Assembly: GCF_900188175.1 (NCBI RefSeq)
Contig: NZ_FZOQ01000020.1
Span: 1 to 64,000, forward strand
Length of the DNA: 64,000 bases
Direction of reading: 5' to 3'
Origin: Pontibacter ummariensis
GTDB taxonomy: Bacteria > Bacteroidota > Bacteroidia > Cytophagales > Hymenobacteraceae
In this document: piece by piece, positions 7,752 to 38,174 of the stretch
How the letters are laid out: each line of letters starts with the position of its first letter
How positions within the stretch are numbered: position 1 is the stretch's first letter
Made by a program: the position numbers and the translations under genes
The notes under the pieces: model-generated
What the model was told of the DNA's origin: nothing
Databases searched by the model: none
What the model saw: the letters and a program-made list of their open reading frames with translations, nothing else

Positions 7752-7756
7752 CCGCT

Positions 7757-23442: not shown

Positions 23443-23723
23443 AGTACGTCACAAAGAATAAAGCTGAATTTAAATGCCAGGTCTGGAACTGCTCTAAGTC
23501 TATCTCTGCGCTTTATACTGACTTCTATACGGACTACAGCTTCTTAGAGGAGCTACAGAGGCTTAAGAAGGATGAGATAAAAGAAGTGCCGCTTGAGTAC
23601 TGCACGCTTCACCTAGTGCCCTTAGACAAGACTACAATAAGGTTCTATGACAGACTAGAGAACAAGAATAGAAAAACATTAGAGAATTTAAATCAACAAG
23701 AAAATGCCAGTATCAAGAAATAG
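23443..23723 (+). pseudogene. 3' remnant of an HUH Rep gene
   Basis: This stretch matches bases 35473-35753, the end of the intact HUH Rep gene, at high identity and at a constant offset of 12,030 bases. It covers Rep residues from the second Tyr of motif III (Y198) to the C-terminus, remains in frame and keeps the stop codon, but has no start, motif I or HUH motif. Most differences are at third codon positions, as expected for divergence while both copies were functional. Confidence 0.85.
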
Positions 23724-23979: not shown

Positions 23980-24081
23980 ATTAAAAATATTTATATAGTA
24001 AGGTTATATTACATTTGTAGCATCACTACGCTTGTTTAAACCTAAGCAAAAATAGCTTGTATGTTGTACTAAACTACTGAA

Positions 24082-25461
24082 ATGAACAGAATTCAAAATT
24101 TCTCAATAAAGAATCTTTTTGGATACCAGAATGTAAAACTGTCATTCAAAGACAATATCTTGATTCTTATGGGTGAAAACGGACTAGGAAAAACATCTAT
24201 CCTTAATTCCCTTTATTTTACTTTAACTCAAAAGTGGAAAAAGCTACACAAAATTAATTTTGAAGCAATAGAGGTGACCATAGATAATCAATCTTTTAGT
24301 TTTACTAAAGATCAATTGTCGTGGTTTATAGATAACCATAGTAATAAAAAGCTTAGCCGCTACAGAAACCTTAGAACAGAAATCATCAACTCCATAGACC
24401 ATGAGGACTTAATTAGCTTTATAAATGAGAGGTCCGATGAGAAGGTTGATAGGCATAGAATTATCTATGAATATGTCCGTAAGAGGAAAATTAACCGTGA
24501 AATGACTGCACCTACTGGCTTGATCATTGAGCTTATAGACCAAATTTTTCAGCAGCCAGATGTAACAGGATTTGAAAAATTAGTTGAATATTTAGATAAG
24601 GCTGAATCCATAAATATTTTATATTTTCCTACTTATAGAAGAGTTGAGGAGGAACTCCATAATTTAGGAAGATTGAAAGGAGTGAGTTCATACGATTTTC
24701 CTGTAGAATTGAGAGTTGAGGAGGATGAAACTGAAGAGTTAGAGGAGGAAACACTTATTCAGTTTGGTATGGAAGATGTTGTTCAACGAATAAAAAACAT
24801 AATAGCCAAAATCAATGACTCTTCTATAAAAGGATTTGCCAAAGTAACAGGTGAGATGCTTCATCAATTGCAGGAAGGATTTCCAAAGCTGTCCAATGAA
24901 GAAATATTAAGTATAAATGGTAATAACATTGAAATCATACTTAATAGAGTTAAAAATAACCTTTCTGAAGCTGATAGAAATAATATCCTTAACCTATTGA
25001 ACACGCAAGAGCTACTTCATAAGCAGGAGCTAGCGTATTTCCTTATAAAACTTGAAGCGATTTACCTCCAGCAACAGAGCTTAGATAATTCTATAAAACA
25101 TTTCGCAAATGTTTGTAATGAATATTTGGTTGATAAAAGGTTCTTTTTTGATGAGAGCTTAGTGACTCTCATTATTCTCAACAACAGGACAAACAAAAAA
25201 GTAGAACTTAATCAGCTTTCTTCAGGAGAAAAACAAATAGTGTCTCTCTTTTCGAAATTATATTTAGAGGATGAAAGAGATTTAATTGTATTCTTTGATG
25301 AGCCTGAACTGTCTTTATCTATAAAGTGGCAAAAGCAACTTCTTCCCCATGTTGTAGAGACTGATAAGTGTAACTTTCTTCTAGCTGTTACTCACTCTCC
25401 TTTCATTTTCAATAATGAGCTGGAGAAATATGCGGTCGGCATGAATGTGTTTATTGACTAA
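24082..25461 (+). CDS. ariA: PARIS system ATPase, AriA-like (AAA15/ABC-type)
   Basis: A 459-aa ATPase with Walker A GENGLGKTS at residues 31-39, signature 'LSSGEKQ' near 379-385, Walker B 'LIVFFDEPE' with Asp406/Glu407, and a switch His near residue 438 ('AVTHSP'). The middle part is helical. The organisation and size fit AriA of PARIS, which forms a sensor scaffold and releases the AriB toxin when a phage anti-restriction protein such as Ocr is detected (established for PARIS of Enterobacterales). The partner starts 11 bp downstream. The gene is AT-rich like its island neighbours. The main alternative is another OLD-like AAA15/DUF4435 pair. Confidence 0.8.
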   Translation: MNRIQNFSIKNLFGYQNVKLSFKDNILILMGENGLGKTSILNSLYFTLTQKWKKLHKINFEAIEVTIDNQSFSFTKDQLSWFIDNHSNKKLSRYRNLRTEIINSIDHEDLISFINERSDEKVDRHRIIYEYVRKRKINREMTAPTGLIIELIDQIFQQPDVTGFEKLVEYLDKAESINILYFPTYRRVEEELHNLGRLKGVSSYDFPVELRVEEDETEELEEETLIQFGMEDVVQRIKNIIAKINDSSIKGFAKVTGEMLHQLQEGFPKLSNEEILSINGNNIEIILNRVKNNLSEADRNNILNLLNTQELLHKQELAYFLIKLEAIYLQQQSLDNSIKHFANVCNEYLVDKRFFFDESLVTLIILNNRTNKKVELNQLSSGEKQIVSLFSKLYLEDERDLIVFFDEPELSLSIKWQKQLLPHVVETDKCNFLLAVTHSPFIFNNELEKYAVGMNVFID

Positions 25462-25472
25462 ATTTTTTTCTT

Positions 25473-26426
25473 GTGGATATTATTGAAGAAGCAAAAAGAG
25501 AGCTCAATTCAGGTTTAGTGGCTTATACAGAGTTTGTATTAGATTACAAAAAAAACTCAGATTCTATATATTGTTTCTATGAGGGTAAAGAAGACAGGAG
25601 CTACTACTCTTTCAGAGTAAAAATGATACACCCAGAGACTAAGTACTTTGATTATGTGTGCAATGGGAAGGAGAATACTTTCAAGTTATATTCATTAATA
25701 CAAAATCATAGTGAATATAGTAGCAGTAAGGTAGCATATTTTGTAGATCGTGATTTCGATCCAATAGCAAGTGAGCAGGATATATATACAACCCCATACT
25801 ATAGCGTGGAGAATTTCTATGTTGTAGATGAAGCTTTCAAAAGTATATTAACGAATGAGTTTAATATTTCAAGGCAGTGCTCCTGCTACCAAATGTGTAT
25901 TGACTTGTTCAAGAGTTGTAAGGAGCTGTTTCATGAGAAAATACTGTTACTAAATGCATGGCTAGCATGCCAGACTGATCTTAGATTAGAAGAGAAATTA
26001 AACACAAGGTTAAGTATCGACAAGACTCTAAAAAATGTCATAGATAGTGAGGAGTTTGACAAAGTTGTCATGCCTGATCTGAAAACCTTAGTGTTTCCTA
26101 ATCGCTTGACTAATGTATCAGAAATAGAATCTATTTTTCATGACGCTCCCAAAGTACCGTCAGAAAGACTGTCAGCAAAAGTGGCTGAATTATCTGGAAT
26201 GAAAGCTGATGAAGTGTTTAGGGGTAAGTTTGAATTAAGATTTTTAGTTTCATTTCTAAATAGACTGAAAGATGAATTAGGTAAAAGGAAAGATTCGATG
26301 TTCCCAAAGCGTTATTCTTGTAGTCTTAGGTTTGAGTATGCGACAAGTGTATCTCAGTTGACAAATAACGCCGTCACTCCTGCGTGCTTATTAGCATATG
26401 TAAGGAAGATAGGGTATGAAGAGTAA
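25473..26426 (+). CDS. ariB: PARIS system effector, AriB-like (DUF4435, toprim-type nuclease)
   Basis: A 317-aa DUF4435 protein starting at GTG 25473, 11 bp after ariA. Toprim-like acidic positions are visible: Glu37/Glu40/Asp41 in 'YEGKEDRSYY', then 'CNGKENTFKL' and Asp92/Asp94/Asp96 in 'YFVDRDFDP', followed by the DUF4435 hallmark 'YYSVENFYV'. In characterised PARIS, AriB is held by AriA and, once released, acts as a toxic nuclease that cuts host tRNA-Lys and stops phage growth. The stop codon touches the att-like repeat at 26426, so this pair fills the cargo slot exactly. Confidence 0.8.
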   Translation: MDIIEEAKRELNSGLVAYTEFVLDYKKNSDSIYCFYEGKEDRSYYSFRVKMIHPETKYFDYVCNGKENTFKLYSLIQNHSEYSSSKVAYFVDRDFDPIASEQDIYTTPYYSVENFYVVDEAFKSILTNEFNISRQCSCYQMCIDLFKSCKELFHEKILLLNAWLACQTDLRLEEKLNTRLSIDKTLKNVIDSEEFDKVVMPDLKTLVFPNRLTNVSEIESIFHDAPKVPSERLSAKVAELSGMKADEVFRGKFELRFLVSFLNRLKDELGKRKDSMFPKRYSCSLRFEYATSVSQLTNNAVTPACLLAYVRKIGYEE

Positions 26427-26450
26427 ATTCCGTCCCCTACACCGTCCCCT
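26426..26450. repeat. att-like direct repeat, copy 1
   Basis: AATTCCGTCCCCT followed by a second CCGTCCCCT in direct orientation. It is almost identical to 32001-32025 and similar to 38011-38034, and marks the right end of element 1. Confidence 0.65.
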
Positions 26451-26460
26451 AAAAGCAAAA

Positions 26461-26491
26461 AAGGCCTGTAAGATATTAGCTTACAGGCCTT
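26461..26491. terminator. Terminator copy matching the one beside tRNA-Leu
   Basis: Stem 26461-26471 pairs with 26481-26491. The hairpin and its flanks (about 26450-26510) are a close copy of the tRNA-Leu terminator at 38044-38076, so it travelled with a duplicated tRNA 3' region. Confidence 0.75.
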
Positions 26492-26502
26492 TATATTTGA
26501 TT

Positions 26503-26532
26503 AATGTACCCCTAAGCCTACCTGAATCGAAC
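26503..26532 (-). pseudogene. Degenerate tRNA-Leu 3'-end fragment
   Basis: AATGTACC...CGAACC aligns with the 3' end of tRNA-Leu(CAA) at 38088-38112 but with mismatches and inserted bases, so no T-stem can form. The upstream terminator copy supports common origin. It is not a functional tRNA. Confidence 0.4.
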
Positions 26533-26850
26533 CAAATTCTTGTTGATATATTAAATCTCAATTCGTTCATGAACTGGCTTAAATCGGAGCATACAAGACT
26601 TTACAAGCATATTATTAATGCACAGTCGGAGTTGAACGACATATAAGAATCTATAGTACCATCATCTACTGCTTTTTCATATTTACTGATAATGACAAGT
26701 TAAAAGAACTGGTGTAAGCCAGTTCTTTTTGCATACATACAGTAATAATCAGTAAAAAATATTGTCATTTCTTTATATTTAGCAAAATGTTTTCACAGCG
26801 AATTTATTAGTTCTTGCTACTGTGAGGTAGAAATATTGTAAGTATGAGCA
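26533..26850. other. Island intergenic region with hairpin and inverted repeat
   Basis: A hairpin AAAGAACTGG/CCAGTTCTTT (26703-26712 with 26719-26728) followed by T's resembles the terminator after the second Zn-protein gene (36004-36027). It lies inside a wider inverted repeat (TTACTGAT near 26682, ATCAGTAA near 26749). A short ORF end upstream (to 26646) may be a coding remnant. The promoter of the nuclease gene is presumably 26740-26845. Confidence 0.45.
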
Positions 26851-27945
26851 ATGGCAAACGTTTCTAAAAGTTTAAATGCAGGGGTTCACAATGCTACAGG
26901 TATTGAGTTTCAGAAGCATTGTGTACTGTTTCTTCTGTTGGATAACTATGAAAAACTAAAAGAAAGGAAGTATTTCATCTGTTTAGAACATCATGATGAT
27001 TTTCTGTTCTGCTTCCAAAATGGAAATGGTGAGCTAACTTCTATTGATGCTTATCAGGCCAAAAAATCCTCTGGTAAGTGGGGTGTTTCAGATGAACTAT
27101 GCGATATCTTAAGAAAATTGGTAGAAGTTGGAGTAGCTCTAAAAGAAGATTCAATACAAAAGAATGAATGCTACTCACATGCACTACATTTTGTTACTAA
27201 TGATGCAATAACATTAAGAGCAGGAAGTAAGCCTAAAGTAGTAACTACTACAATCAATGAATCAAATAATTGGGTAGAGTTTGTTAAGTTAGACAAGAAG
27301 ATTAGAGACTGTCTTGAAGAAAAAGTTAAGAAAAAGCTAAAATCCAACATTACAGCACTTAATGAAGTTGGAAATATAAAGTTTTGTTTCATCGACTTCG
27401 GTAAAACTCGACAGGGTCATATTGAGCGGTTAATAGGCAAATTTATTTTGACTTTCAGTAACAAAGTTAAAGACCCCAATGCAGCCATTCTTACTCTTTT
27501 GGAGCTATTTAGAGAGATTGAAACTGCTTTCAATCAAGGATACAAGGCTAAACTGTTAGATAAGAAAAAAAGGGTAGAAAGCGATGTTATAAATGAAGCT
27601 TTAAACATCATTACTTCTCAGCAAATGGCTTTTGAAACATGGCGAAATCACAGGAAAGATTTTGCTAAGTCTTTGGGACTAAATCTTATACAGCAAAGAG
27701 AATTCGAATTGCACTTCAATAACAGTTTTGATTTATTTAAAGATTACCATCAGGCTGAACATATCAAAATACTATCTTTTGTAAGAAATAATAGTCAATT
27801 GCTTGAAAGTTGTACAGATGAAGTGATGCTTGTAGAAGAAATGTTTAAGAAATTTAAGTCTGAGAACAACTCTCAACTGGATGAAGTTGAGTTAAAAGCT
27901 GCGGTTTTTGCAGCATGTATAGAGTTAATTAATCCTCATGAATAA
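26851..27945 (+). CDS. DUF4297 (Cap4-like) dsDNA nuclease, probable LmuA-like effector
   Basis: A 364-aa protein whose N-terminal 110 residues match the DUF4297/Cap4 PD-(D/E)xK nuclease pattern: 'HNATGIEFQKHCVLFLLLDNY' (Glu19), Glu46 and Asp49-Asp50 in 'LEHHDDFLF', then Asp66 and 'QAKK' (Gln69, Lys71). The remaining part is helical and lacks a recognisable SAVED domain, so it is unlikely to be a CBASS Cap4. It overlaps the following SMC-like gene by 8 bp (ATGAATAA). A nuclease plus SMC ATPase is the arrangement of Lamassu/DdmABC systems, in which the nuclease kills or degrades DNA after the SMC partner senses foreign DNA. No lmuC-like third gene is present. Confidence 0.7.
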   Translation: MANVSKSLNAGVHNATGIEFQKHCVLFLLLDNYEKLKERKYFICLEHHDDFLFCFQNGNGELTSIDAYQAKKSSGKWGVSDELCDILRKLVEVGVALKEDSIQKNECYSHALHFVTNDAITLRAGSKPKVVTTTINESNNWVEFVKLDKKIRDCLEEKVKKKLKSNITALNEVGNIKFCFIDFGKTRQGHIERLIGKFILTFSNKVKDPNAAILTLLELFREIETAFNQGYKAKLLDKKKRVESDVINEALNIITSQQMAFETWRNHRKDFAKSLGLNLIQQREFELHFNNSFDLFKDYHQAEHIKILSFVRNNSQLLESCTDEVMLVEEMFKKFKSENNSQLDEVELKAAVFAACIELINPHE

Positions 27946-29671
27946 GAAATTAGAGTTCAATAGACTTTTTGCCTATTCAGAAAAGCTGAATAAATGTTTC
28001 AATGCTGAGTTTGGCAAAGGTGTTAACATTATACATGGACGTAATACATCAGGGAAAAGTACGCTATTACTATCTCTACTTTATGTTTTTGGTATAAATG
28101 ATGTTAAACTTCAATTGCATGAGATTCTCCAATATGGGGGATTAATTTTTCGTCTGGACTGTACTTTATTTGGCAGCCAAACTGTAGAAAACCTTACAAT
28201 TATAAGAGAAGATGAAAGTCTGATTGTTAAGAGAGCTAATCAACCTGTTTTAAGGTTCAATGGGATTGGTAGTGATAATTCAGTTGAGCATATAAAGCTT
28301 AAACATTTCTTTCATGAGCTATTAGGTTTCTCATTGTATTTGGAAAGTAAAAACGAATACAAAGAAGCACCTATCGAAACAATTTTTTTACCTTATTATA
28401 TTTCTCAGGCTGTTGGTTGGGTATATCTCCGAAAATCCTTTAGCAACTTAGACTACTACAGAAACTTCAAAGATGATTATCTTGATTACTATTTAGGGAT
28501 TGATAACTTTTTTGATAGGCTTGCTAAGCAGCAGTTAGAGGATAGACTGAAGGTTTTAAATAAGGAAAAAAGCTTCTTCACTAAGTTTGAAAGTAATAAT
28601 ATAGACATACAGGTAGCAAGAATAAATGATGAAAAATTTACTAAAGAGTCGTTAAATTATCTCGAAACGTTTAGGACTAAAAAGAAGGAGTTAGCTAATA
28701 CAGAAAAAGATTACACCTTGAAGTGTAATGAACTCAGCTTGTTTTTACAGAGAAAATCTGTTCTTTCTAAAGTAGCTAATCATCATAAAACACAACGTCC
28801 AGTTGATGGAAGTTGCCCTGTATGTTTACAAAGTTTACCGTTGAACCTTGCTGCAACATATAAATTTCATCAGGAATCGAATGATACTGAATTAGAAATA
28901 AATAAGTACAAGGATAAAATTAAAAAGACTCAATCTGAGGTCAACTCACTTCACAGTAAAATTTCAAAGCTTAAGAAAAATATACATAAAGAATATAAAA
29001 TACTTAGCACTTACTTTGAAGAGGGTATAACATTTGAAGACTGGTTAAGGAGTAAAGCAAATATTAGACTTAGTGAGAACATCACTATGAATCTTGGAGA
29101 GATAGTTAGAGAAGAAGAACGAATCAAAAAGGATTTAGAAAGCTTCAAGACTGAAGAAGAAGTAGTAATAGAGAGGAATAATAGAATAAAATCTTTTGCT
29201 ACATTATTCAAAAACTACTTAAATCAGTTGCAGGTGAAAGCACTTGTAGAGGATAGGTATACGAGCGTTTATAAAATTTCTGCATTTCCTTATCAGGGAG
29301 TAGAATTACATAAAACAGTTATGGCTTATCACTTTGCGTTTAATAGATTGATAAAGCAAAATAACAATATTCACAGGCTTCCTTTTATTTTAGATGCTAT
29401 CTTCAAAGAAGATATAGACCAACCCAATAAAGATTTGATAATTAAGTTTATCAGTAATAATAGACCAAAGGATACACAAACCTTTTGCTCTATTGCAGAG
29501 ATTAATGATTCAGAAAGCGAAGTTAAAAGGTTTAATAAACAATACTTTGGTAATGAAGCCCACCTGATTTGTATAGGTAATGGAATAGATGAACGAGCTT
29601 TCCTTTCTGAATATGATGATAATCTTTCTGAATATTTATTAGAAACATTAGAATTAATAAATAGCCTTTAG
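27938..29671 (+). CDS. Rad50/SMC-like ATPase with zinc-hook-type motif, probable LmuB-like
   Basis: A 577-aa protein. Walker A 'GRNTSGKS' is at residues 34-41. Two coiled-coil arms surround a 'CPVC' hook (Cys293, Cys296) in 'DGSCPVCLQSLP'. The C-terminal ATPase half is non-canonical: no LSGGE signature is seen (the corresponding region reads 'FPYQGVELHKTVMAYHFAFN'), and Walker B reads 'LPFILDAIFKEDID' (Asp486, Glu491). This suggests a derived or regulated ATPase. It follows the DUF4297 nuclease with an 8-bp overlap, hence a two-gene operon. It is best regarded as a divergent Lamassu-type SMC; an undescribed nuclease-SMC defence family is an alternative. Confidence 0.65.
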   Translation: MNKKLEFNRLFAYSEKLNKCFNAEFGKGVNIIHGRNTSGKSTLLLSLLYVFGINDVKLQLHEILQYGGLIFRLDCTLFGSQTVENLTIIREDESLIVKRANQPVLRFNGIGSDNSVEHIKLKHFFHELLGFSLYLESKNEYKEAPIETIFLPYYISQAVGWVYLRKSFSNLDYYRNFKDDYLDYYLGIDNFFDRLAKQQLEDRLKVLNKEKSFFTKFESNNIDIQVARINDEKFTKESLNYLETFRTKKKELANTEKDYTLKCNELSLFLQRKSVLSKVANHHKTQRPVDGSCPVCLQSLPLNLAATYKFHQESNDTELEINKYKDKIKKTQSEVNSLHSKISKLKKNIHKEYKILSTYFEEGITFEDWLRSKANIRLSENITMNLGEIVREEERIKKDLESFKTEEEVVIERNNRIKSFATLFKNYLNQLQVKALVEDRYTSVYKISAFPYQGVELHKTVMAYHFAFNRLIKQNNNIHRLPFILDAIFKEDIDQPNKDLIIKFISNNRPKDTQTFCSIAEINDSESEVKRFNKQYFGNEAHLICIGNGIDERAFLSEYDDNLSEYLLETLELINSL

Positions 29672-29712
29672 TCAAAGGTTTTGATAAGGCTTCTCTTTTA
29701 TAGTTGGCATTT

Positions 29713-29748
29713 AAGCCTTATAAGTTAGATACTTATGAGGCTTTTTTT
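29713..29748 (+). terminator. Terminator of the nuclease-SMC operon
   Basis: Stem 29713-29724 pairs with 29732-29743 (AAGCCT...AGGCTT core), followed by T's. An ORF called across it (29704-29934) is therefore unlikely to be a gene. Confidence 0.7.
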
Positions 29749-29760
29749 ATATGTTCCATA

Positions 29761-29932
29761 ACCCCATTTTATCACTCCTATATGTATCTAAAATGGGGTA
29801 CATACTCCATTAAATTACCTTTTATTAAATTGATAATTGTATATTTTGTAGTTTTTAACAGCAAAAAAGGCATATATCCTCCCCTCCTCCTGTCGCTTCC
29901 TGCAAACAATGTCATGTACCGACCCCATTTAT
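29761..29932. repeat. ACCCCATTTTA half-site repeats upstream of the recombinase
   Basis: A perfect 11-bp inverted repeat, ACCCCATTTTA (29761-29771) with TAAAATGGGGT (29789-29799), plus a third partial copy ACCCCATTTA near 29922. They lie in the gene-free 29750-30107 stretch, which is very AT-rich and also holds a TAGATATATATCTA palindrome near 30074. They may be recombinase or regulator binding sites (inference). Confidence 0.5.
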
Positions 29933-30107
29933 AAATTTTTTATAAAAAATCCAGTTTTTAAAGCAGTATTTAATGCTGCTTATTTTATTGTAAATTATTT
30001 TAATCGACTATAAGTCAATGCTTTGAAGGCTATTTAAAAGTTTTTCGTTAGATAGCGAGGTTTTACGGGTTATATAGATATATATCTATTAAAAAATTCC
30101 CTAAAAC

Positions 30108-30293
30108 ATGGCAAATCATTCAATATATTCTGATATTCAGAAGAATCGGTTATCTATTGTCAAGACTGAAGAAATACTAAAATGTAAAGGTTATGAAAAC
30201 TTAAATAGTGAACAGGCAATGATTGTTGCAGAATCTTTAAGGCTATTCTGTGAGATAATTGCAGATATGTACTTTTTAACTGGTAGGATTTAA
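30108..30293 (+). CDS. Small hypothetical protein preceding the recombinase
   Basis: A 61-aa soluble helical protein ('YSDIQKNRLSIVKTEEILKCKGYENLNSEQAMIVAESLRLFCEIIADMY'). It ends 18 bp before the serine recombinase and is probably in its operon. It lies behind a palindrome near 30074 that could act as an operator. No family recognised; a recombination directionality factor or small regulator is possible by position only. Confidence 0.45.
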   Translation: MANHSIYSDIQKNRLSIVKTEEILKCKGYENLNSEQAMIVAESLRLFCEIIADMYFLTGRI

Positions 30294-30311
30294 ATTATAA
30301 AAGTGTAAGTC

Positions 30312-31913
30312 ATGAAGGAAAAAGACCTTTTTACAAACAAAAGACAAAAGAAAAACTCTCAAAAGAAAGAGACTAACAACGTGGTGATATACACTCGTGT
30401 AAGTACAAAAGAGCAGTATGAAACTAATGCCAGCTTAGGCACTCAAAAGAAAGTATGTGAGGAATTTGCTAAGAAGAATGGCTACAATGTAGTAAAGTCT
30501 TTTGGTGATACTTATGAAAGTGCAAAAACTGATAAAGGTCGTAAGCATTTTCAAGCAATGTTAGACTACATTAAAAAGCATAAAAAGGATATACGTGGTG
30601 TGATTGTGTATGACTATTCAAGGTTCTCAAGGTCAGAAGAGAATGTTGTACTTGTTTATGAGTTGAAGCGTTTAGGTGTTGAAGTTCTTTCCGCAACGCA
30701 ACATATAGATACAAAATCATCAACAGGTAAGTTCGCACAAGCTTTACAATTGATACTGGCAAACCTTGATAATGAACAGAAGAGCGAAAGAACAAAAGCA
30801 GGTATTATTGAAAAGTTAAAACAAGGAATATGGCCTACCAAACTACCAGTAGGGTACGCTAAGAACCAAGAAACTAAGTCTGTAGAAATTACCAAAGAAG
30901 GTGAATTGATAAAAGAGGCATTTATATTGATTGCCTCAGGCGATACTATTACCTCAATCAAGAAAAAGATGGATAGGAAAGGCTTCAGACGTGATATTAG
31001 AAGGTGGGGTGATATTTTAGATAATCCTTTCTACTGTGGACTAATCGTTCATAGATTGTTAGATTATCAACCTATAAAGGGTGTTCACCCCCCACTAATT
31101 TCTGTAGAACAATGGGAGAAGATTAAGCGAGCAAGAGCAGGCAAGGAGATTGTTCAATCATATATTAATGCTGCCCCATTTTATCCATTAAAAGGCTTTA
31201 TTAGCTGTGCCTGTGGTAGGAAGTTTACAGGGTATCAGGCTAAGAAGAAAGCTAAACCAAATGGAAACTTCTTTTACTATAAATGTAATAATTCAAGCTG
31301 CTACACCAACGTATCTACTAAAGTTGCAGAACAAGAATTTGCTACGTTCTTATCTAAACTATCACTAAACAAGAATTTGCAAGGAGTATTTAAAAAGCAA
31401 CTCAAGGCTACCTACTTAAACTATAAAAATGAATCAAGGCTTAAGAAGAAGAAGCTTGAAGCAGATATCAAAGACTATGAAAACAAGAGTAGATTACTAA
31501 CAGATAAATGGCTTTACGAAGGGCTGGATAAAGAGATTTATCAGGAACATAAGCTAATGTTAGAAGAAGGGAAAGCAGCGGCTGTTCAAGAACACAATCT
31601 ACTTGAACTTGAGCTATCGAACCCTGATGAATTCATCAATTTTGCAGTTTATATTTCTGCAAACCTTCATAGATTGTGGGAAAAGGCAGAGGTTGGCGTT
31701 AAGAAAAGGCTTCAAGAATTAGTTTTCCCTCAGGGTGTTTCATTTGTAAAAGAAACTAAGAGTTATCGAACTCCTGAAATAAACATAATATTTAAGTTAA
31801 ATGGCTCAAAACCAGAGAATAGAGGGCATAAAAAAAGCGGGGAAATCAGCAATTCTGCCAATTCCCCCGCTTCAGTACCTTGGGCCGTAGTACTTTTATA
31901 TTCTGCATCCTAA
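30312..31913 (+). CDS. Large serine recombinase
   Basis: A 533-aa site-specific recombinase. The catalytic domain begins with Ser31 in 'VIYTRVSTKEQ' and includes 'YDYSRFSRSEENVV' and 'TGKFAQALQLILANLDNEQKSERTKAGI'. A recombinase domain follows, then a zinc ribbon ('ISCACGRKFTGYQ' and 'YYKCNNSSCY') and a coiled coil. Such enzymes integrate and excise elements through a 2-bp core. The last 25 or so codons run through a GC-rich hairpin and a 12-bp match to the 3' end of tRNA-Leu, so the stop codon may lie in DNA joined by integration. The true C-terminus in the circular form would then differ. Confidence 0.9.
   Translation: MKEKDLFTNKRQKKNSQKKETNNVVIYTRVSTKEQYETNASLGTQKKVCEEFAKKNGYNVVKSFGDTYESAKTDKGRKHFQAMLDYIKKHKKDIRGVIVYDYSRFSRSEENVVLVYELKRLGVEVLSATQHIDTKSSTGKFAQALQLILANLDNEQKSERTKAGIIEKLKQGIWPTKLPVGYAKNQETKSVEITKEGELIKEAFILIASGDTITSIKKKMDRKGFRRDIRRWGDILDNPFYCGLIVHRLLDYQPIKGVHPPLISVEQWEKIKRARAGKEIVQSYINAAPFYPLKGFISCACGRKFTGYQAKKKAKPNGNFFYYKCNNSSCYTNVSTKVAEQEFATFLSKLSLNKNLQGVFKKQLKATYLNYKNESRLKKKKLEADIKDYENKSRLLTDKWLYEGLDKEIYQEHKLMLEEGKAAAVQEHNLLELELSNPDEFINFAVYISANLHRLWEKAEVGVKKRLQELVFPQGVSFVKETKSYRTPEINIIFKLNGSKPENRGHKKSGEISNSANSPASVPWAVVLLYSAS
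31833..31892. other. Candidate attachment site: hairpin plus tRNA-Leu 3'-end match
   Basis: A stem AGCGGGG...CCCCGCT around 31837-31871 is followed by GTACCTTGGGCC, identical to the tRNA-Leu(CAA) 3' end at 38090-38101. It lies inside the 3' end of the recombinase ORF and is the likely right attachment site of the serine-recombinase unit. Confidence 0.5.
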
Positions 31914-32000
31914 TTGATGTTTACTAAAAATGTGCTTAAATAGGCTGTAATGGCTGTTTTGTGATTAAGATCAGTTAAGACTGATTAAGCCAAATTAACA

Positions 32001-32025
32001 AATTCCGTCCCCTAATCCGTCCCCT
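32001..32025. repeat. att-like direct repeat, copy 2 (left end of element 3)
   Basis: AATTCCGTCCCCT plus a second CCGTCCCCT, differing from copy 1 at two bases. It lies 36 bp upstream of the tyrosine recombinase gene, the usual place for an attL site. Confidence 0.7.
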
Positions 32026-32061
32026 GCATTAGATTAATTCCTATATTGTAGTCATAGATAT

Positions 32062-33291
32062 TTGACTATGGCTAGCACTACTTTTGTTCTCAAAGAACCT
32101 ACCTCAAAAGATGAGACTCTTGTTTATATGCTGTTCCGCTTTAATAACAAGAGGCTTAAGTTTTCTACTGGTGAAAAGATTCTTCCTAAGTTCTGGAATC
32201 CAGAGAAGCAACGCGCTAAAGAGACTAAGCAGTTTCCGGATTATCTAGAGTTTAATACAAGATTGGATAACTGCGAGTCTGCTATCAAGACGGTGCATAG
32301 GAGGCTAGTTAATGATAAGATTTTGCCTACTGTGGCTAATCTGAAAGAGGAGCTTTTGAAAGAGCTGCTTGATGAGGAGGAGCAGGAAGGAATGACGCTG
32401 TTCAAGTTCATAGAAGAGCTTATAAAGACTACCTCTAAGAGACCTAATACTATCAAGAACTATAAGCAAGCTCAAGCCAGACTTACAGAGTATAGAACAG
32501 CTAGGAAGAGAAAGCTAGATTTTGAAGATATTAATCTTGATTTCTACTATGACTTCACCAAATACCTGCAGGATAAGAAGTACTCAGTAAACAGTATAGC
32601 GGGCTTCATAAGGAACATTAAGGTTTTTATGAATGAAGCTACTGATAGAGGGATCAACAAGAATCTGGAGTATCTGAACAAGCGATTTAAGGTAGTAGAA
32701 GAGCATGCTGATGCTGTCTACCTGACTCAAGATGAGCTTAAGAAAATATATGAGCTTGATCTTTCTAATAATGAGAGGTTGGATAGGGTTAGAGACTTAT
32801 TTATAGTTGGGTGCTATACTGGTCTTAGGTTCTCCGACTTAGAATATGTTACTCAGGAAAACTTTATTAAAGACAACACCCAGATAAGATTAAAAACCCA
32901 GAAAACAGGAGGTGTTGTAGTTATACCCGTTCATAAGTTTGTAAAGCAGATATATGATAAGTATTTCGGAGTGCTGCCTACTTCTATCAGCAATCAAAAA
33001 ATGAATGACTATATTAAAGAGGTGGCAGAGCTTGCTAAGATTGAAGATAAGGTGCTGATCAGCATTACAAAAGGAGGGAAGAGAGAACAAAGTTCTCATT
33101 TAAAGCATGAGCTTATTTCTACCCATACTGCAAGAAGAAGTTTTGCTACTAATCTTTACTTAGCTGATGTGCCTGCTATTACTATAATGAAGATCACTGG
33201 CCATAAGACGGAGAAAGCATTTATGAAGTACATTCGTTTATCTCAGGAAGAAAACGCAGACAAACTTATCAATCACCCATTCTTTAACTAA
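32062..33291 (+). CDS. Tyrosine recombinase (phage integrase SAM-like, Bacteroidota type)
   Basis: A 409-aa integrase. The N-terminal arm-binding region is followed by a SAM-like core-binding domain ('LFKFIEELIKTTSKRPNTIKNYKQA') and a catalytic domain with Arg256 ('CYTGLRFSDLE'), His355-x-x-Arg358 ('STHTARRSFATN'), His381 ('ITGHKTEKAF') and nucleophile Tyr390. All catalytic residues are present. It is the first gene inside the left att-like repeat, with the next gene overlapping its stop codon (TAATG). It is expected to integrate the element at the tRNA-Leu-flanking site. Confidence 0.92.
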   Translation: MTMASTTFVLKEPTSKDETLVYMLFRFNNKRLKFSTGEKILPKFWNPEKQRAKETKQFPDYLEFNTRLDNCESAIKTVHRRLVNDKILPTVANLKEELLKELLDEEEQEGMTLFKFIEELIKTTSKRPNTIKNYKQAQARLTEYRTARKRKLDFEDINLDFYYDFTKYLQDKKYSVNSIAGFIRNIKVFMNEATDRGINKNLEYLNKRFKVVEEHADAVYLTQDELKKIYELDLSNNERLDRVRDLFIVGCYTGLRFSDLEYVTQENFIKDNTQIRLKTQKTGGVVVIPVHKFVKQIYDKYFGVLPTSISNQKMNDYIKEVAELAKIEDKVLISITKGGKREQSSHLKHELISTHTARRSFATNLYLADVPAITIMKITGHKTEKAFMKYIRLSQEENADKLINHPFFN

Positions 33292-34208
33292 TGCCTTTTA
33301 AAAACATTACAGACGAGGAGCTTGCACTGCTCAAGCAGGAGTTTAACCAACTTAAAACGATAGAGGAGAAGTTTAAATTCTGGCGTGTTAAGTTGAGGCA
33401 TAACTACATGTGGGTTGGAGTTACAATTCCTTTAGCAGAAAGAGGGATAAATGATTTTCTTATTAAACCAAATAATGAAGCGGAAACAGAAGAGTTTAAT
33501 CTGCATTTATTAGAAGAGGTAAGTTTTACCGATTCTTTACGTGCAGGAGGAAAAGTAATGGTTGACTCAGAAACTCTAGTTCTAAGGCTCTCGGAGAAGC
33601 TAAAAGATGTGGTGAACCCTAAGCCACTTTTAGAGAGTGAGATTAGTTGGATAGATTCTGAAGTAGAAAAGTATCAGAGGTTGCCAAGAACGGCAAATGA
33701 CAGTAACCATTTTTTTAAAATGTCTCTTAGTGCTTGCTGGCTTAAGGCTTATGAAGAGTACTATCTGAAGAGGCGAGAAGTTAGTATGAAACATACTAGT
33801 TATAGCTATGCAACTCTAATGGGAGGTTATGCTGGATGTGAGTTAGCTAAATATAGAGTGTACGTTGAGCGGAAACTAGAGGAAGTAAAAAATAATCAAA
33901 CACCCTTGGCGCAGGAAGATACTCCTCTTAAAAGGCAACTGCTTATTATGCTTTATACTGGTATGCTTGACAAGCTAGATCATGTTAAAAACAAAGACAG
34001 AAATAAGCTTCTCTCTGTACTGCTAAATAGAAGTGAACAAAGTATAAAAACGGAGCTCACTAACATTCATAAAAGGAGTAGGGTCTATAAAATCAGGACT
34101 GAAGAAAACTATTCTTTCTTGCTTGATCTATTTGAACAGGTGCAGTTAAATGAGCAAGTTGAAGAGGTTAAGAATGAGTTAGATAAGTTAAATGGAGTAA
34201 AAAAGTAA
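33291..34208 (+). CDS. Mobile-element protein of unknown function
   Basis: A 305-aa soluble, mostly helical protein. The start codon overlaps the integrase stop by one base. The C-terminal third ('LLIMLYTGMLDKLDHVKNKDRNKLLSVLLNRSEQSIKTELTNIHKRSR') resembles the C-terminal helical region seen in RteC-like and related Bacteroidota mobile-element proteins, but the match is weak. It could be a regulator of integration or replication. No catalytic motif or membrane segment. Confidence 0.5.
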   Translation: MPFKNITDEELALLKQEFNQLKTIEEKFKFWRVKLRHNYMWVGVTIPLAERGINDFLIKPNNEAETEEFNLHLLEEVSFTDSLRAGGKVMVDSETLVLRLSEKLKDVVNPKPLLESEISWIDSEVEKYQRLPRTANDSNHFFKMSLSACWLKAYEEYYLKRREVSMKHTSYSYATLMGGYAGCELAKYRVYVERKLEEVKNNQTPLAQEDTPLKRQLLIMLYTGMLDKLDHVKNKDRNKLLSVLLNRSEQSIKTELTNIHKRSRVYKIRTEENYSFLLDLFEQVQLNEQVEEVKNELDKLNGVKK

Positions 34209-34274
34209 CCCCTCCCCACCCCCTATACTCGGGGCTTCTTAGGATTCTTTTGTGGCATAACAAAACAAAAAGTT

Positions 34275-34598
34275 ATGTCACAAATCATCCTAAATGGACT
34301 TACAACTGAGCAACTCAAGGAGCTGCTAGTTGAGGTAATTGCTGAACACCTAAGTTCGGCTTCTAGTGTGTTAAGTGCTGCCCACTCTTCCCAAGATCAG
34401 CCAACATACTTAACTAGAGCTGAGGCTGCCAAGCTTCTGCAAATCTCTCTGCCTACTCTTAACGACTACACCAAGAGAGGCGTCATTTCATCTTACCGGA
34501 TTGGTGCTAATGTGCGCTACAAGTTCTCAGACATAGAGAGCGCACTGCAAGAAAGAAACTTCACCACGAAGCGGAAAGGAGGTCGTCATGGCGCATAA
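34275..34598 (+). CDS. Helix-turn-helix (excisionase/MerR-like) protein
   Basis: A 107-aa protein with a C-terminal winged HTH of the excisionase/HTH_17 kind: 'YLTRAEAAKLLQISLPTLNDYTKRGVISSYRIGANVRYKFSDIESAL'. The N-terminal helix 'LTTEQLKELLVEVIAEHL' may dimerise. Such proteins act as excisionases or as regulators in Bacteroidota integrative elements. The next gene overlaps its end by 11 bp. Confidence 0.8.
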   Translation: MSQIILNGLTTEQLKELLVEVIAEHLSSASSVLSAAHSSQDQPTYLTRAEAAKLLQISLPTLNDYTKRGVISSYRIGANVRYKFSDIESALQERNFTTKRKGGRHGA

Positions 34599-34890
34599 GA
34601 ATGACTACTCCGTCATAGCCTTCTTTTCTGATGACACAAAGCCTAAGCGCTGGACTTATGTGCATAAGCTCTACGGCTTCTCCTTATTCCTGAACAGGAA
34701 ACATCCGGCTTGGAGGTACATGAATGTGTACGACCGTCGCAGCGGGAATTTTATCAGACGGTTCTACAGGGGACAGAGTATCCCTAACTTCCTCACGGTT
34801 TTGTTTTTTTTAACCTTCAGTATTTCAAACCTTCATTACATCCCCCTATATGGTTTTAATAATACTGCAACGATTCAGATTCCGTGTTAG
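34588..34890 (+). CDS. Small basic protein preceding Rep, function unknown
   Basis: A 100-aa protein: 'YSVIAFFSDDTKPKRWTYVHKLYGFSLFLNR' then 'MNVYDRRSGNFIRRFYRGQSIPNFL', ending in a hydrophobic and less protein-like stretch after residue 75 that is encoded by a T-rich run (TTTTGTTTTTTTTAA). The tail suggests a possible frameshift or degraded C-terminus. It overlaps the HTH gene by 11 bp and the Rep GTG by 7 bp, so the genes are coupled. No family recognised. Confidence 0.5.
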   Translation: MAHKNDYSVIAFFSDDTKPKRWTYVHKLYGFSLFLNRKHPAWRYMNVYDRRSGNFIRRFYRGQSIPNFLTVLFFLTFSISNLHYIPLYGFNNTATIQIPC

Positions 34891-35753
34891 TCAAAAACAC
34901 GTACGGTTGCAGCGCTGTGCTAGGCACAACTTTAACCAAAAGGCTATACTATACGAAGTACTCCGGTTCATCTCTGGACAGAAAAAAGCAAGTAAAAACT
35001 AAGCCTAAAAAGAAGGAAGCTGCTGAGGAGGAACAGGAGAAAGATACTACTGAGAAAGTTCGTGTTATGTCTGGTCGGACTAAGACTAAAATCAGAAAGA
35101 AACTCTTTGCTTTCTCTCGGCTTCATAAGCGCCTCACATTCGTTACGCTCACTTTTGTAAATGAGGTAACTGATGAGCAGGCTATCAAGGTACTCAGGAA
35201 GTTTATTGACAACACGAAGAAGAGGGGCAAGAACTTCCAATATCTGTGGGTTGCTGAGAGGCAGACAGAGAATAAAATCTTTCCGGATAACATTCACTTC
35301 CACATGATCACTAATAAGTACTGGGATATCCAAAAGACCTGGAACTACTGGTTAGATCTCCAAAGAAGGAATGGCATTGTTCCAAGGGATGAGAGCTTTA
35401 AAGCTTCTTCTGCTTTTGATGTAAAGAAAGTAGACACGAAGAACCCCAAGCAGGTAGGGACTTACCTCACGAAGTACGTCACGAAGAATAAAGCTGAATT
35501 TAAATGTCAGGTCTGGAACTGCTCCAAGTCTATCTCTGCACTCTATACCGACTTCTACACGGATTACAGCTTCTTAGAAGAGCTACAGAGGCTTAAGAAG
35601 GATGAGATAAAGGAAGTGCCGCTTGAGTTCTGTACGCTTCACCTAGTGCCCTTGGATAAGACTACCATAAGGTTCTATGACAGACTAGAGAACAAGAATA
35701 GAAAAACATTAGAAAACTTAAATCAACAAGAAAATGCCAGTATCAAGAAATAG
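34884..35753 (+). CDS. rep: HUH-type rolling-circle replication initiator (Rep)
   Basis: A 289-aa protein with the three HUH-endonuclease motifs: motif I 'LTFVTLTF' (84-91), motif II 'IHFHM' (His138, His140) and motif III 'YLTKYVTK' with Tyr194 and Tyr198. HUH Reps nick one strand at an origin, stay bound through Tyr, and start rolling-circle replication. The first about 80 residues are basic and low complexity; the start is a GTG at 34884, and an internal ATG at about 35067 would still include motif I. It is followed, with a 20-bp overlap, by the Zn-binding protein. A second, truncated copy of its 3' end lies at 23443. Confidence 0.82.
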   Translation: MLVKNTYGCSAVLGTTLTKRLYYTKYSGSSLDRKKQVKTKPKKKEAAEEEQEKDTTEKVRVMSGRTKTKIRKKLFAFSRLHKRLTFVTLTFVNEVTDEQAIKVLRKFIDNTKKRGKNFQYLWVAERQTENKIFPDNIHFHMITNKYWDIQKTWNYWLDLQRRNGIVPRDESFKASSAFDVKKVDTKNPKQVGTYLTKYVTKNKAEFKCQVWNCSKSISALYTDFYTDYSFLEELQRLKKDEIKEVPLEFCTLHLVPLDKTTIRFYDRLENKNRKTLENLNQQENASIKK

Positions 35754-36000
35754 AAAGAAGAAGAACAACAGCTCTAGAGTTAAAGCTGCCCCGCCTATGT
35801 GTATACATGAACTATTTAAGCTGCAGACAAACCCCTGCAGGAAATGCGGAAGAGTAAGGGACGAATTTAGTTATAAGGAGCTTCCTGATAAGGAGCAGCC
35901 ACACTGGAAAGAAACAGGAGTGTTAGATTCTATAGACTACTTCCTGTACTGCCCAAGCTGTGAGGAGTACTCTGCTTTGTTTATGACAGAAGAGTTTTAA
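35734..36000 (+). CDS. Small Cys-rich, probable zinc-binding protein (copy 2)
   Basis: An 88-aa paralogue of the 23704 protein: basic N-terminus, 'MCIHELFKLQTNPCRKCGRVRDEFSYKEL' and 'DYFLYCPSCEEYSA'. The CxxC pairs and the Cys-x-His are conserved between copies while the N-terminal tail and last residues differ, suggesting selection on the zinc site. It is coupled to rep and closed by a terminator, so it ends the backbone operon; the defence cargo begins after it. Confidence 0.65.
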   Translation: MPVSRNRKKKNNSSRVKAAPPMCIHELFKLQTNPCRKCGRVRDEFSYKELPDKEQPHWKETGVLDSIDYFLYCPSCEEYSALFMTEEF

Positions 36001-36003
36001 CAG

Positions 36004-36031
36004 AAGAACCGGTTAACACCGGTTCTTTTTA
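36004..36031 (+). terminator. Terminator ending the element backbone operon
   Basis: Stem 36004-36013 pairs with 36018-36027 (AAGAACCGGT/ACCGGTTCTT), then T's. It separates rep and the Zn gene from the cargo, which therefore has its own promoter in the AT-rich 36032-36133 region. Confidence 0.75.
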
Positions 36032-36133
36032 TTTCTAATGGAACTTAAGGTTTTATATATTATAATTACATTATATACTTCAATGAACGTCTGAACACTA
36101 TGATTATACGTGTTGTGCAAAATATAAAACACT

Positions 36134-37909
36134 ATGAGTACAAGTTCATCAACAAACTTTAGCGAAATAATAAAGAAAGCACGTGTAGGTAAATATAAGT
36201 TACCTGCTTTTCAAAGAAAATGGAAATGGTCTCAAAAGCAGGTAATGTCTTTGTTTGAGAGTTTACGGCAAGGCTACCCTATAGGCTCTTTTTTAGTAAT
36301 GACTTCTGAAGAGGCTTTAAGGCTAAACCCTCGTGCATTTTATGGTACTGGAGCTACTGCTGAAAGTGAAAACAGTATGGACGGTTTAGTTTTGGATGGG
36401 CAACAACGGATTACAGCTGGTCTTGCTATTTATTATGGAGTGGAAAATCCTAGTGGAATAGACTATTATATTAATGTTAAGAAAATCAAAGAGCTTATTG
36501 AAGAAAGGAAAGTAGATTTAGATAGTGATAAAAGTATAGAAGTTTTTGCAAAGTCTCTTGATGTAGAGGATGGATATATAACTACAAAACCTCAAAGAAA
36601 GAACAGAGACCATAATTTTTATGAGCATTGGTTACTGTGGACTGGATTCCTTACAAAAGATAAGGCAGACGAGCTTGATAATATTGTAGATAAACTTGAT
36701 GAGAGAGATAAAGCTATTTTAAGAAGAGTAGTAAGGCGGCATTTTAGTCCCGCAATGGAGATACCTGTTCCTGTAATAACATTGGGGAAGGAATTTGACT
36801 TAGGAGCCATAAGTAAGATATTTACAACTATTAATACTACAGGTAAACTTCTTACTCCTTTTGAATTAGTTGTTGCGATACTGTTTCCAGAGAATGTTTT
36901 TCTCGAAGAAGAGATAAATGAGTTCAAAACTAAGTATCAGTACTACTCCAATATGGATAAGAATGGAGAAATTTTATTGCAAACAATTGCTCTTCTTGAT
37001 AGTAAGCCTCCTAAGAAGTCTGATTTGCCAAAAAATATGAATGCTGTTATTTATAACAGACATCGGGATAATGCAGTAAATAGCCTAGATAATTTAGGTA
37101 AATGGCTTACAGACTCAATTGGGTTAGGTTTAGATAGTTCTAATAAACTTGTACCTTATGATGCTATTTTTGCTCCTATGGCAGTTGTTTTTGGGTATAT
37201 AGAGGATAAGTATAAAAATACTAATAAAGTAAAAGCAAGATATAAGCTCAAAAAATGGTTTGTAGGAAGTGTCTTGTCACAACGTTATCAAGAAGGAGTT
37301 CATAATAAACAACAGAACGATGTTGATGAATTCAAAGCTTGGATAGACGATGAAAAGTTAATGCCAAAGTGGTTAGATGACGTTGTTATTAGCCCATCAA
37401 TAAAAAGAGCAAGCTCGTCTGGTGCAATTGGTAAATTAATTAAGTGCATGATAAACATGAGACATCCCAAAGACCCTGCTTCAGATGAGCCGATAGGATT
37501 TAAAGATGGCTTAATTCAAACAGAAATACACCATATTTTTCCTACAAAATGGGTGAAAAAGGGTTTAGTTGATTTTGAGGATGAGAAAATTAATATTAAT
37601 GTTGCTTTGAACACTATGTTCCTGTCTAAGCAAACTAATGGAGATTGGTTAAATTTTGATCCAAAAACTCAAGTGGAGCAAGCTAGAAAAGCTAGTAGTA
37701 ATGAAATGATGTACGCTAATTTTGAAACTCAATTCATTAGTCAATCTGCTATCGAAATTTTAAGTAAAAGCACTAAGAAAATGTCTGATTATGAAAGCTT
37801 TCTAAATGCTCGATTTAAGTCATTTGCTGATGAGTTGAGTCAGTATAACTTTAAAAAGGTAGAAAATGAGGAAGAAGGCTTTCAAGAATTAGATGAGTCT
37901 GAAGAATAA
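36134..37909 (+). CDS. DUF262/HNH protein, GmrSD-like type IV restriction enzyme
   Basis: A 591-aa protein. The N-terminal DUF262 domain (ParB/Srx-like) has 'LPAFQRKWKW' and the signature 'LVLDGQQRITAG' (Asp88-Gly-Gln-Gln-Arg92), which binds and hydrolyses NTP in GmrS. The C-terminal part carries an HNH-type motif of the DUF1524/GmrD kind ('QTEIHHIFPTKWV', His466/His467, with a following Asn-rich 'NVALNTMFLSKQTN'). Single-chain GmrSD enzymes cut phage DNA carrying modified (for example glucosylated) cytosines. It is the only cargo gene of element 3, between the backbone terminator and the right att-like repeat. Related BrxU- or SspE-type specificity cannot be excluded. Confidence 0.82.
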   Translation: MSTSSSTNFSEIIKKARVGKYKLPAFQRKWKWSQKQVMSLFESLRQGYPIGSFLVMTSEEALRLNPRAFYGTGATAESENSMDGLVLDGQQRITAGLAIYYGVENPSGIDYYINVKKIKELIEERKVDLDSDKSIEVFAKSLDVEDGYITTKPQRKNRDHNFYEHWLLWTGFLTKDKADELDNIVDKLDERDKAILRRVVRRHFSPAMEIPVPVITLGKEFDLGAISKIFTTINTTGKLLTPFELVVAILFPENVFLEEEINEFKTKYQYYSNMDKNGEILLQTIALLDSKPPKKSDLPKNMNAVIYNRHRDNAVNSLDNLGKWLTDSIGLGLDSSNKLVPYDAIFAPMAVVFGYIEDKYKNTNKVKARYKLKKWFVGSVLSQRYQEGVHNKQQNDVDEFKAWIDDEKLMPKWLDDVVISPSIKRASSSGAIGKLIKCMINMRHPKDPASDEPIGFKDGLIQTEIHHIFPTKWVKKGLVDFEDEKININVALNTMFLSKQTNGDWLNFDPKTQVEQARKASSNEMMYANFETQFISQSAIEILSKSTKKMSDYESFLNARFKSFADELSQYNFKKVENEEEGFQELDESEE

Positions 37910-37923
37910 TTCTCATAGTAATG

Positions 37924-37964
37924 AAAACCCAGTAGTTATTTCTGTTTACTACTGGGTTTTTATA
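37924..37964 (+). terminator. Terminator of the GmrSD-like gene
   Basis: Stem AAAACCCAGTAG (37924-37935) pairs with CTACTGGGTTTT (37949-37960), followed by T-rich sequence. Confidence 0.75.
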
Positions 37965-38010
37965 TTTAAAGCTAACTATTTCAAACACAAGCTTAAGCTT
38001 TAGGACATGC

Positions 38011-38034
38011 ATTCCGTCCCCTGTAACGTCCCCC
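38011..38034. repeat. att-like direct repeat, copy 3 (right end of element 3)
   Basis: ATTCCGTCCCCT followed by CGTCCCC, matching copies 1 and 2 with a few differences. It is 57 bp from the tRNA-Leu 3' end. Confidence 0.65.
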
Positions 38035-38043
38035 GAAAATAAA

Positions 38044-38076
38044 AAAAGCCTGTAAGTTATTAGCTTACAGGCTTTT
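38044..38076. terminator. Terminator downstream of tRNA-Leu(CAA)
   Basis: Perfect stem 38044-38055 with 38065-38076 (AAAAGCCTGTAA/TTACAGGCTTTT). It can stop minus-strand transcription from hscB/tRNA-Leu and plus-strand transcription from the island. Confidence 0.8.
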
Positions 38077-38090
38077 ATATTTAATCAATG

Positions 38091-38174
38091 TACCTTGGGC
38101 CGGAGTCGAACCGGCACGAGTGTTACCTCATTGGTGTTTGAGACCAACGCGTCTACCAATTCCGCCACCAAGGC
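38091..38174 (-). tRNA. tRNA-Leu (anticodon CAA)
   Basis: An 84-nt gene on the minus strand with acceptor GCCTTGG/CCAAGGT, D-arm GGAATTGGTAGA, anticodon loop CTCAAAC (anticodon CAA, codon UUG), a variable arm, T-arm GGTTCGACTCC, and no encoded CCA. It lies 11 bp downstream of hscB. Its 3' side is the integration hotspot of the island. Confidence 0.93.

Follow-up and report, generated by a model that had tools for sequence, protein, structure and literature searches.

We analysed a 64,000 nt stretch of the Pontibacter ummariensis genome (contig NZ_FZOQ01000020.1, positions 1 to 64,000; "the window" in the following) and found in it a compact integrative element of 6,215 bp, element C (31875-38089), which adjoins the 3' end of a tRNA-Leu(CAA) gene. 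Its genes, all on the plus strand, encode in this order a tyrosine recombinase (Int), a 305-aa protein, a helix-turn-helix (HTH) protein, a small protein (the 100-aa open reading frame P100), a replication initiator of the HUH type (Rep), a zinc-ribbon-like protein (Zn) and, behind a terminator, a cargo protein. A preliminary description had noted this order at 32-38 kb and had proposed a compact integrative element that combines an integrase and an HUH Rep with exchangeable cargo; all genes and positions were recovered and the main claim is supported. Very probably element C is a mobile integrative rolling-circle cargo element of a family spread through Bacteroidota. The architecture, ends, geometry, target genes, cargo variation and decay pattern as well as one empty site were read directly, whereas excision, nicking, replication and transfer are what we infer from them.

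The best repeat between both ends of element C is GTACCTTGGGCCG, which occurs as an exact 13-bp copy at 31875 and at 38090. The right att core (38090-38102) is the 3' end of the tRNA-Leu(CAA) gene, the tRNA itself lying at 38090-38174 on the minus strand, and the attL core (31875-31887) matches it exactly, a layout that recurs in 17 elements. Inside these cores two copies of CGTCCCCT with a 12-nt period are situated at the left end (32002-32025), and repeat comparison located the CGTCCCCT repeats of the right end at 38011-38034. Counted from the core, they begin at 127 nt on the left and at 79 nt on the right. The preliminary description had placed the att repeat at 32000, 38009 and 26425; these repeats are not the crossover site, since the exact tRNA-Leu core lies outside them. 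We rejected CGTCCCCT as crossover core because the tRNA-end core is found outside it at a near-constant distance and because the repeat also stands before a related Int in a stretch of a viral contig that gave no Rep match. In this 44-kb contig (L114, 1748-2960) the same double CGTCCCCT directly precedes a tyrosine integrase 32% identical to the window Int, and Rep and the other backbone queries were without match in the 14 kb examined; the repeat therefore seems to travel with Int. We interpret the CGTCCCCT repeats as putative arm-type binding sites of the integrase. The right boundary, formerly drawn before the terminator hairpin adjoining the tRNA gene (38044-38076, found by terminator and hairpin inspection), had to be shifted, as this hairpin belongs inside element C. 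By eye, the genes downstream of the integrase in L114 resemble early-phage genes.

Relatives of Rep were detected in 18 of the 204 genomes of the host family and in 4 of 395 genomes of a phylum sample, the latter including the window genome and G462, where a distant Rep is present in a phage-like provirus only. Two further families, those of G584 and G305, were picked because each already had a known Rep match and yielded 8 of 294 and 14 of 299 genomes, respectively; one of the 294, G607, has a distant Rep without other backbone matches. The named hosts are Pontibacter silvestris, Rufibacter roseus, R. sediminis, Daejeonella (two) and Polaribacter glomeratus and span Cytophagales, Sphingobacteriales and Flavobacteriales. 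Twenty-four loci were compared side by side. L121, L126 and L137 gave no Int match, and from the 21 loci with Int and Rep we left out L120, L122 and L134 (contig end) and L123 (no arm motif), so that 17 elements, the one of the window included, had both ends located.

These elements measure 5.8-7.8 kb and share a gene order in which Int, in many cases followed by a variable gene, precedes HTH, a protein of ~70 aa, HUH Rep and the cargo; in 16 of the 17 a tRNA or tmRNA 3' end was called behind the cargo. The att cores are exact repeats of 13-19 bp in all elements except L084, where the repeat is imperfect (16/17). The distance from the core to the left arm repeats is 127-136 nt in 16 elements and 148 nt in L133, and the right arm repeats lie 74-80 nt from the core in 16 of 17, L128 lacking the motif at its right end. 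For L085, L132 and L133, where only the second right repeat is exact, the inexact first copy was set 12 nt ahead of it. Nine elements target tRNA-Met(CAT) and four tRNA-Leu (CAA in three, TAA in one), whereas tRNA-Ser(GGA), tRNA-Glu(TTC) and tmRNA (L084) serve as target once each. The Polaribacter element has a 17-bp core at a place where no tRNA was called.

The backbone genes of these elements vary together. Among 16 elements (L124, counted in the 17, is outside these statistics) the pairwise identities correlate at 0.90 for Int and Rep, 0.88 for Rep and P100 and 0.83 for Int and P100, values reached in none of 2000 permutations each. Comparison of the 45 cargo reading frames of at least 100 aa, on the other hand, produced matches for only 3 of the 120 element pairs. 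That Rep is followed by variable cargo had been set beforehand as one check on which the proposal could fail, and nearly every relative indeed carries a different cargo behind Rep.

The cargo of the window element (36134-37909) is a predicted restriction protein of the GmrSD/DUF262 type (PF03235, GmrSD_N, E 4e-27; PADLOC PDC-M55C E 2e-19 and HEC-05 E 7e-19); in addition to the GmrSD_N domain it contains an HNH-like stretch, IHHIFPTKW, which was recognised by eye and has no Pfam match. Together with this protein, 7 of 16 cargos have family-library support as restriction or defence genes, these being raw counts, uncorrected for how common such genes are otherwise: McrBC (L086), a type ISP enzyme (L125), an EcoRI-type enzyme with C5 methylases (L129), an OLD-type protein (L131), a DNA methylase with a PD-Lambda-5_A-like gene (L135) and a DpnII system (L136). 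L094 resembles a type II restriction system by eye only. The family-library scans of the cargos left out L124, L094 and several small reading frames, and a blank in Pfam or PADLOC is no proof of a non-defence function. The dedicated defence slot of the preliminary description thus stands in part: the cargo is often restriction- or defence-like (eight of 16) and is not always a recognisable defence gene. We rejected a purely defensive cargo because L082 and L026 carry an EamA transporter and a GNAT protein.

Rep (34884-35753) matches the family PF23343 (REP_ORF2-G2P) above the cut-off with E 3e-12 and a PHROG of rolling-circle initiation. The HFH and YxxxY motifs characteristic of the HUH (ORF2/G2P) group are invariant in 21 aligned Rep sequences. 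The structural model of Rep (predicted local distance difference test, pLDDT, 69) gave fold matches in BFVD down to E 1e-7; most of the best 50 are unnamed, and the named ones are viral replication proteins. In the PDB fold search the origin-binding domain of the adeno-associated virus (AAV) Rep was the best match (E 0.013), and several other HUH domains, among them the geminivirus Rep and a REP-associated transposase, were found as well; unrelated folds were intermixed and no match fell below E 0.001. The Rep sequence had no match among the PDB sequences at E 1.

Directly upstream of rep an alignment of 22 loci revealed a conserved block (34800-34879, plus strand) that consists of a T-tract, iteron-like ACCTTYA repeats and a ATGGTTTTAATAATACTGCAACGATTCAGA-type block and is kept in nearly all of these loci; the exception is L137, which has a truncated Rep start. 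Within 170 nt upstream of rep there are zero to five ACCTTYA copies (two in the window, none in L124 and L137), whereas elsewhere in each locus fewer than 0.07 copies are found per 170 nt. We propose this block as a candidate double-strand origin of rolling-circle replication. P100 (34588-34890) reaches into it. The 100-aa reading frame of the preliminary description is present; the conserved protein comprises only about 70 aa, and residues ~72-100 are read through the conserved DNA block. Accordingly, P100 is conserved and confidently modelled over residues ~1-70 only, with a pLDDT below 50 from residue 72 onward. The frame continues through the block in 4 of 18 loci (window, L082, L094 and L120) and ends before it in the other 14. 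The family-library scans gave no convincing match for P100, and its fold search against PDB gave no match at E 0.001.

The remaining genes were examined by family scans, which for the backbone cover the window element only. Int (32062-33291) contains the Pfam domains Arm-DNA-bind_5, Phage_int_SAM_5 and Phage_integrase and was aligned with five relatives. The 305-aa protein (33291-34208) is alignable chiefly in its C-terminal part and matched no family above the cut-off. The HTH protein (34275-34598) matches HTH_17 and the excisionase family TIGR01764 and is a possible directionality factor; a PHROG small-terminase match (E 4e-4) covers its helix-turn-helix region only. As a search query it gave matches in 80 of the 204 host-family genomes, strong ones only in the window genome and in G138. 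Zn (35734-36000) shows CxxC pairs by eye, its Pfam zinc-ribbon matches being all sub-threshold, and has homologues in 22 of the 204 host-family genomes. The pair of Rep and Zn, suggested earlier as the family signature, was rejected as a search signature: Zn homologues accompany Rep only in the host family, and the distant relatives have Rep and no Zn match. Small zinc-ribbon-like reading frames with cysteine pairs follow Rep in L094 (10286-10531) and L125 (7663-7848; both in Rep-strand orientation) and have no detected match to the window Zn.

The terminator noted behind Zn was confirmed at 36002-36029 by terminator inspection and marks the boundary between backbone and cargo. The cargo does not touch the right repeat, as had been stated, and ends ~100 nt before it. 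The separate cargo promoter of the preliminary description received no support: a scan found 14 sigma-70 sites versus 15.3 expected, with a model ill-suited to this phylum. No conjugation, transfer, packaging or phage structural gene was recognised in element C by the family scans.

At the window tRNA-Leu(CAA) three elements, A, B and C, are stacked, C being nearest to the tRNA. Element A (23443-26506) is the left-truncated relative of element C that the preliminary description had reported together with a PARIS pair, and it proved real. It comprises the C-terminus of Rep (23443-23720, 98-99% identical to Rep residues 197-289), an intact Zn gene (23704-23979, 78% identical to that of element C), a PARIS system as cargo (24082-26426), and the same right end (26427-26510; 84 nt, 86% identical to the end of element C) with arm repeats, terminator and the tRNA 3'-end remnant GTACC (26506-26510). 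The PARIS system consists of the ATPase AriA (24082-25461) and the DUF4435 protein AriB (25473-26426), with PADLOC E 9e-32 and 1e-35. Element B (26506-31874) carries, according to the family and PADLOC scans, Lamassu LmuA/LmuB and a serine recombinase and uses the same tRNA 3' end. All these features lie on the plus strand. Element B is unrelated to C; close relatives of it lie directly at the tRNA in L032 (84-91% identity) and L064 (64-75%), as does a relative of its recombinase (36% identical) in L077.

The same A-B pattern was found in G172 (L032), where A, a decayed relative of C, holds another cargo and is followed by the Lamassu element directly against the tRNA. In L125 a single CGTCCCCT end lies just outside the complete element, backed by a hairpin-like stretch and accompanied by a TIR-like reading frame (by eye), which looks like another stack. 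In G177 (L073) only ~60 nt, including a terminator-like hairpin, separate the 3' end of tRNA-Leu from the end of the chromosomal gene that borders the window array. Judged by its sequence, this is the empty site that the preliminary description had called for, and the only clean one among those examined. For tRNA-Met, the conserved left flank and the tRNA are separated only by the 6.4-kb element in G1075; in the same genus the interval is ~0.5 kb in G1166 and 11-32 kb in G1161, G1162, G1163 and G1165.

The gene beyond the window tRNA-Leu(CAA), which from its sequence we take to be hscB, is present in 50 of 50 genomes of the genus. The tRNA-Leu locus was examined in 49 of them (G154 was left out), and tRNA-Leu(CAA) was called at all 49 hscB loci. 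The right-end motif, defined as at most two mismatches to either of two forms, is present at 24 of the 49 loci, the window included, whereas 64 control positions gave 0.17 on average and never more than 1. Int was detected at one of the 49, that of the window, within at most 13 kb of the tRNA (less than 6 kb in L049 and L077). When L030 and L066 are added for their Rep or Zn remnants, 24 of 26 loci have a reading frame of at least 150 aa near the right end according to a scripted distance rule; L035, just outside this rule, has a TIR gene. Other slots of decayed copies hold a NACHT protein (L079), a KAP NTPase (L038, PDC-S20 by scan), Septu PtuAB (L054), an OLD/AriA-like ATPase (L055), PIN_8 (L069) and a DUF262 protein (L050), and further loci of the host family with Rep remnants hold SIR2 (L034), HD-CE/HATPase (L033) and DUF4062-TPR (L040). 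That right end and cargo were kept and Int was lost suggests selection, although sampling by the right end favours nearby cargo, so that this is no proof. KAP NTPase genes apparently of the L038 family were seen by eye in the slots of L044 and L072. L053, L058, L060, L075 and L078 share a different right-end sequence beside tRNA-Leu, suggesting a further element family at this Pontibacter hotspot.

Several observations weigh against a mobile integrative rolling-circle cargo element. With two Rep queries, 50,697 phage records yielded no relative and 72,556 plasmids only a 24%-identity match to a 2.3-kb plasmid, and pattern-based IMG/VR scans found no Rep relative; a free replicating form was thus not caught. 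L096 contains, at 4594-10863 on the minus strand, a phage-like provirus that encodes a virion structural protein and an endolysin besides a distant Rep and a P100-like reading frame (E 2e-5); the replication pair thus also occurs outside the element family. Seven of the 16 cargos (L084, L085, L127, L128, L130, L132 and L133) have no assignment, the EamA transporter and GNAT protein of L082 are non-defence genes, and in L059 and L062 the reading frame nearest to the tRNA resembles a sensor kinase and a transposase, respectively, neither a plausible cargo. Finally, L123 has a complete backbone without the arm motif, and in L122 the motif is missing at the left end. In the same collections, P100 queries found nothing in IMG/VR, phages or plasmids, the distant L096 Rep retrieved three Inoviridae records at 23% identity, and of the 23 IMG/VR stretches showing the arm pattern 22 were without a backbone match, several looking repetitive by eye.

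We considered four alternatives to a mobile integrative cargo element. First, element C could be a phage satellite that replicates upon infection and is packaged by a helper phage. Integrase, excisionase-like regulator, Rep and anti-phage cargo in the absence of structural genes would fit, and according to PMC12595487 a jumbo phage moves I55, one of a group of Pseudomonas islands that possess an inovirus Gp2-like gene. The window backbone, however, contains no recognised gene for capsid size or packaging interference, and the phage collections contain no close relative, so we regard a satellite as possible and on the doubtful side. Second, the HUH protein could be the relaxase of an integrative mobilizable element (IME), nicking an origin of transfer (oriT) for passage through a resident conjugative machine instead of initiating replication. 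Bacteroidetes IMEs use similar targets (NBU1 tRNA-Leu, NBU2 tRNA-Ser), and a relationship between MobT relaxases and rolling-circle Reps is described (PMC5704250); a weak match to Relaxase (PF03432, E 0.014, below the cut-off) overlaps Rep. Against this stand the best families of Rep (REP_ORF2-G2P and the PHROG of rolling-circle initiation), the viral replication proteins among its named fold matches and the lack of a recognised coupling protein or Mob accessory in the window element, which make a relaxase rather unlikely.

Third, the element could be the remnant of a single-stranded DNA or tailless temperate phage that lost its virion genes and left defence genes behind. The phage-type Rep and the L096 provirus, which pairs a distant Rep and a P100-like reading frame with a virion structural protein and an endolysin, speak for such a descent. 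The reduced architecture and near-fixed end spacings, however, recur in 17 elements whose Ints are often only ~50% identical, which argues for a successful unit and not for independent wrecks. A mere remnant is thus improbable; a phage of this kind may be the distant origin of the elements, and the L096 provirus hints at where the pair of Rep and P100 came from. Fourth, an ordinary tRNA-side defence island assembled by chance from unrelated genes, for which the three defence systems and two unrelated recombinases of the locus could be cited, is contradicted by the constant gene order, the covarying Int, Rep and P100 and the end geometry across three named orders and has next to no probability.

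For the mobile integrative cargo element that we favour, the following mechanism can be proposed. Int, together with the excisionase-like HTH protein, would recombine attP with a tRNA or tmRNA gene at its 3' end, thereby rebuilding that gene, for which the element would supply the terminator; Int presumably binds the CGTCCCCT repeats near both ends. The excised circle would be copied by rolling-circle replication, Rep nicking an origin just before its own gene, perhaps with the help of the ~70-aa protein. The stretch from rep to the right end would be an exchangeable cargo bay, often filled with restriction or anti-phage genes, with which the element would pay for its stay. New arrivals would insert beside the tRNA and displace older copies outward, and these would shed the half from Int to Rep and keep the right end and the cargo, giving rise to a defence island. 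Because the window element has no recognised gene for transfer or packaging, its transfer would probably need a helper phage or a conjugative element.

If this holds, the elements would offer anti-phage systems in Bacteroidota a compact means of spreading whose boundaries are known exactly. Some defence islands may arise when elements insert repeatedly at the same tRNA, lose the mobility half and retain the cargo. To find candidates for new defence systems, one can read the genes that lie between Rep and the CGTCCCCT repeats on the tRNA side, and the use of a phage-type HUH Rep for replication versus transfer in an integrative element becomes testable. A bolder interpretation, to which we give about an even chance, is that phylum-wide minimal integrating rolling-circle carriers constitute a dedicated delivery system for immunity genes: the backbone is constant, one bay is refitted and is a source of undescribed defence systems, and the hosts build tRNA-side islands by keeping the cargo and shedding the vehicle. 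The bay would then be a ready source of such systems, 7 of the 16 cargos being without assignment.

Element C resembles several known systems in part. Actinomycete integrative conjugative elements such as pSAM2 combine an integrase, an excisionase and a rolling-circle Rep on a tRNA-inserted element. Element C is alike in these respects and differs in that no TraB-type translocase was recognised in it and that its RepSA match is sub-threshold. Phage satellites (P4-like elements and phage-inducible chromosomal islands, PICI) carry an integrase, a regulator, their own replication gene and a cargo spot with defence genes. These are also present in element C, whereas no capsid-remodelling, capsid-hijacking or packaging gene was recognised in the window backbone. 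Inoviruses share a Rep of the Pfam ORF2/G2P group; unlike them, the window element has no recognised coat gene or Zot-like morphogenesis ATPase.

The IMEs NBU1 and NBU2 are alike in their tyrosine integrase, their tRNA 3'-end targets in Bacteroidota and the lack of a recognised conjugation machine of their own (PMC5704250). Element C likewise has a site-specific integrase and att repeats; in contrast to IMEs, it contains no relaxase above the cut-off and a phage-type HUH Rep instead. A further likeness is to the I55-like Pseudomonas islands, which according to PMC12595487 have a tyrosine integrase at tmRNA, HTH proteins, an inovirus Gp2-like protein and varied anti-phage systems and no recognised transfer genes. 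By that description they range from less than 20 kb to more than 70 kb and often contain AlpA, RadC and YqaJ. The elements described here have a G2P-type Rep and one tmRNA-targeting relative, but no AlpA, RadC or YqaJ match was found in the window element; they measure 5.8-7.8 kb, belong to another phylum, and have a fixed gene order, mostly tRNA targets and a single cargo bay.

Our literature searches, whose coverage excluded most preprints and subscription papers, found no description of this element family, and the accessible portions of PMC11389934 and PMC12324425 do not describe it. We judge it to be a new family and a variant among the integrative helper-dependent elements, that is IMEs, satellites and I55-like islands, and not a new category. 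What distinguishes it from these is its compactness, its near-fixed end geometry and its exchangeable cargo bay.

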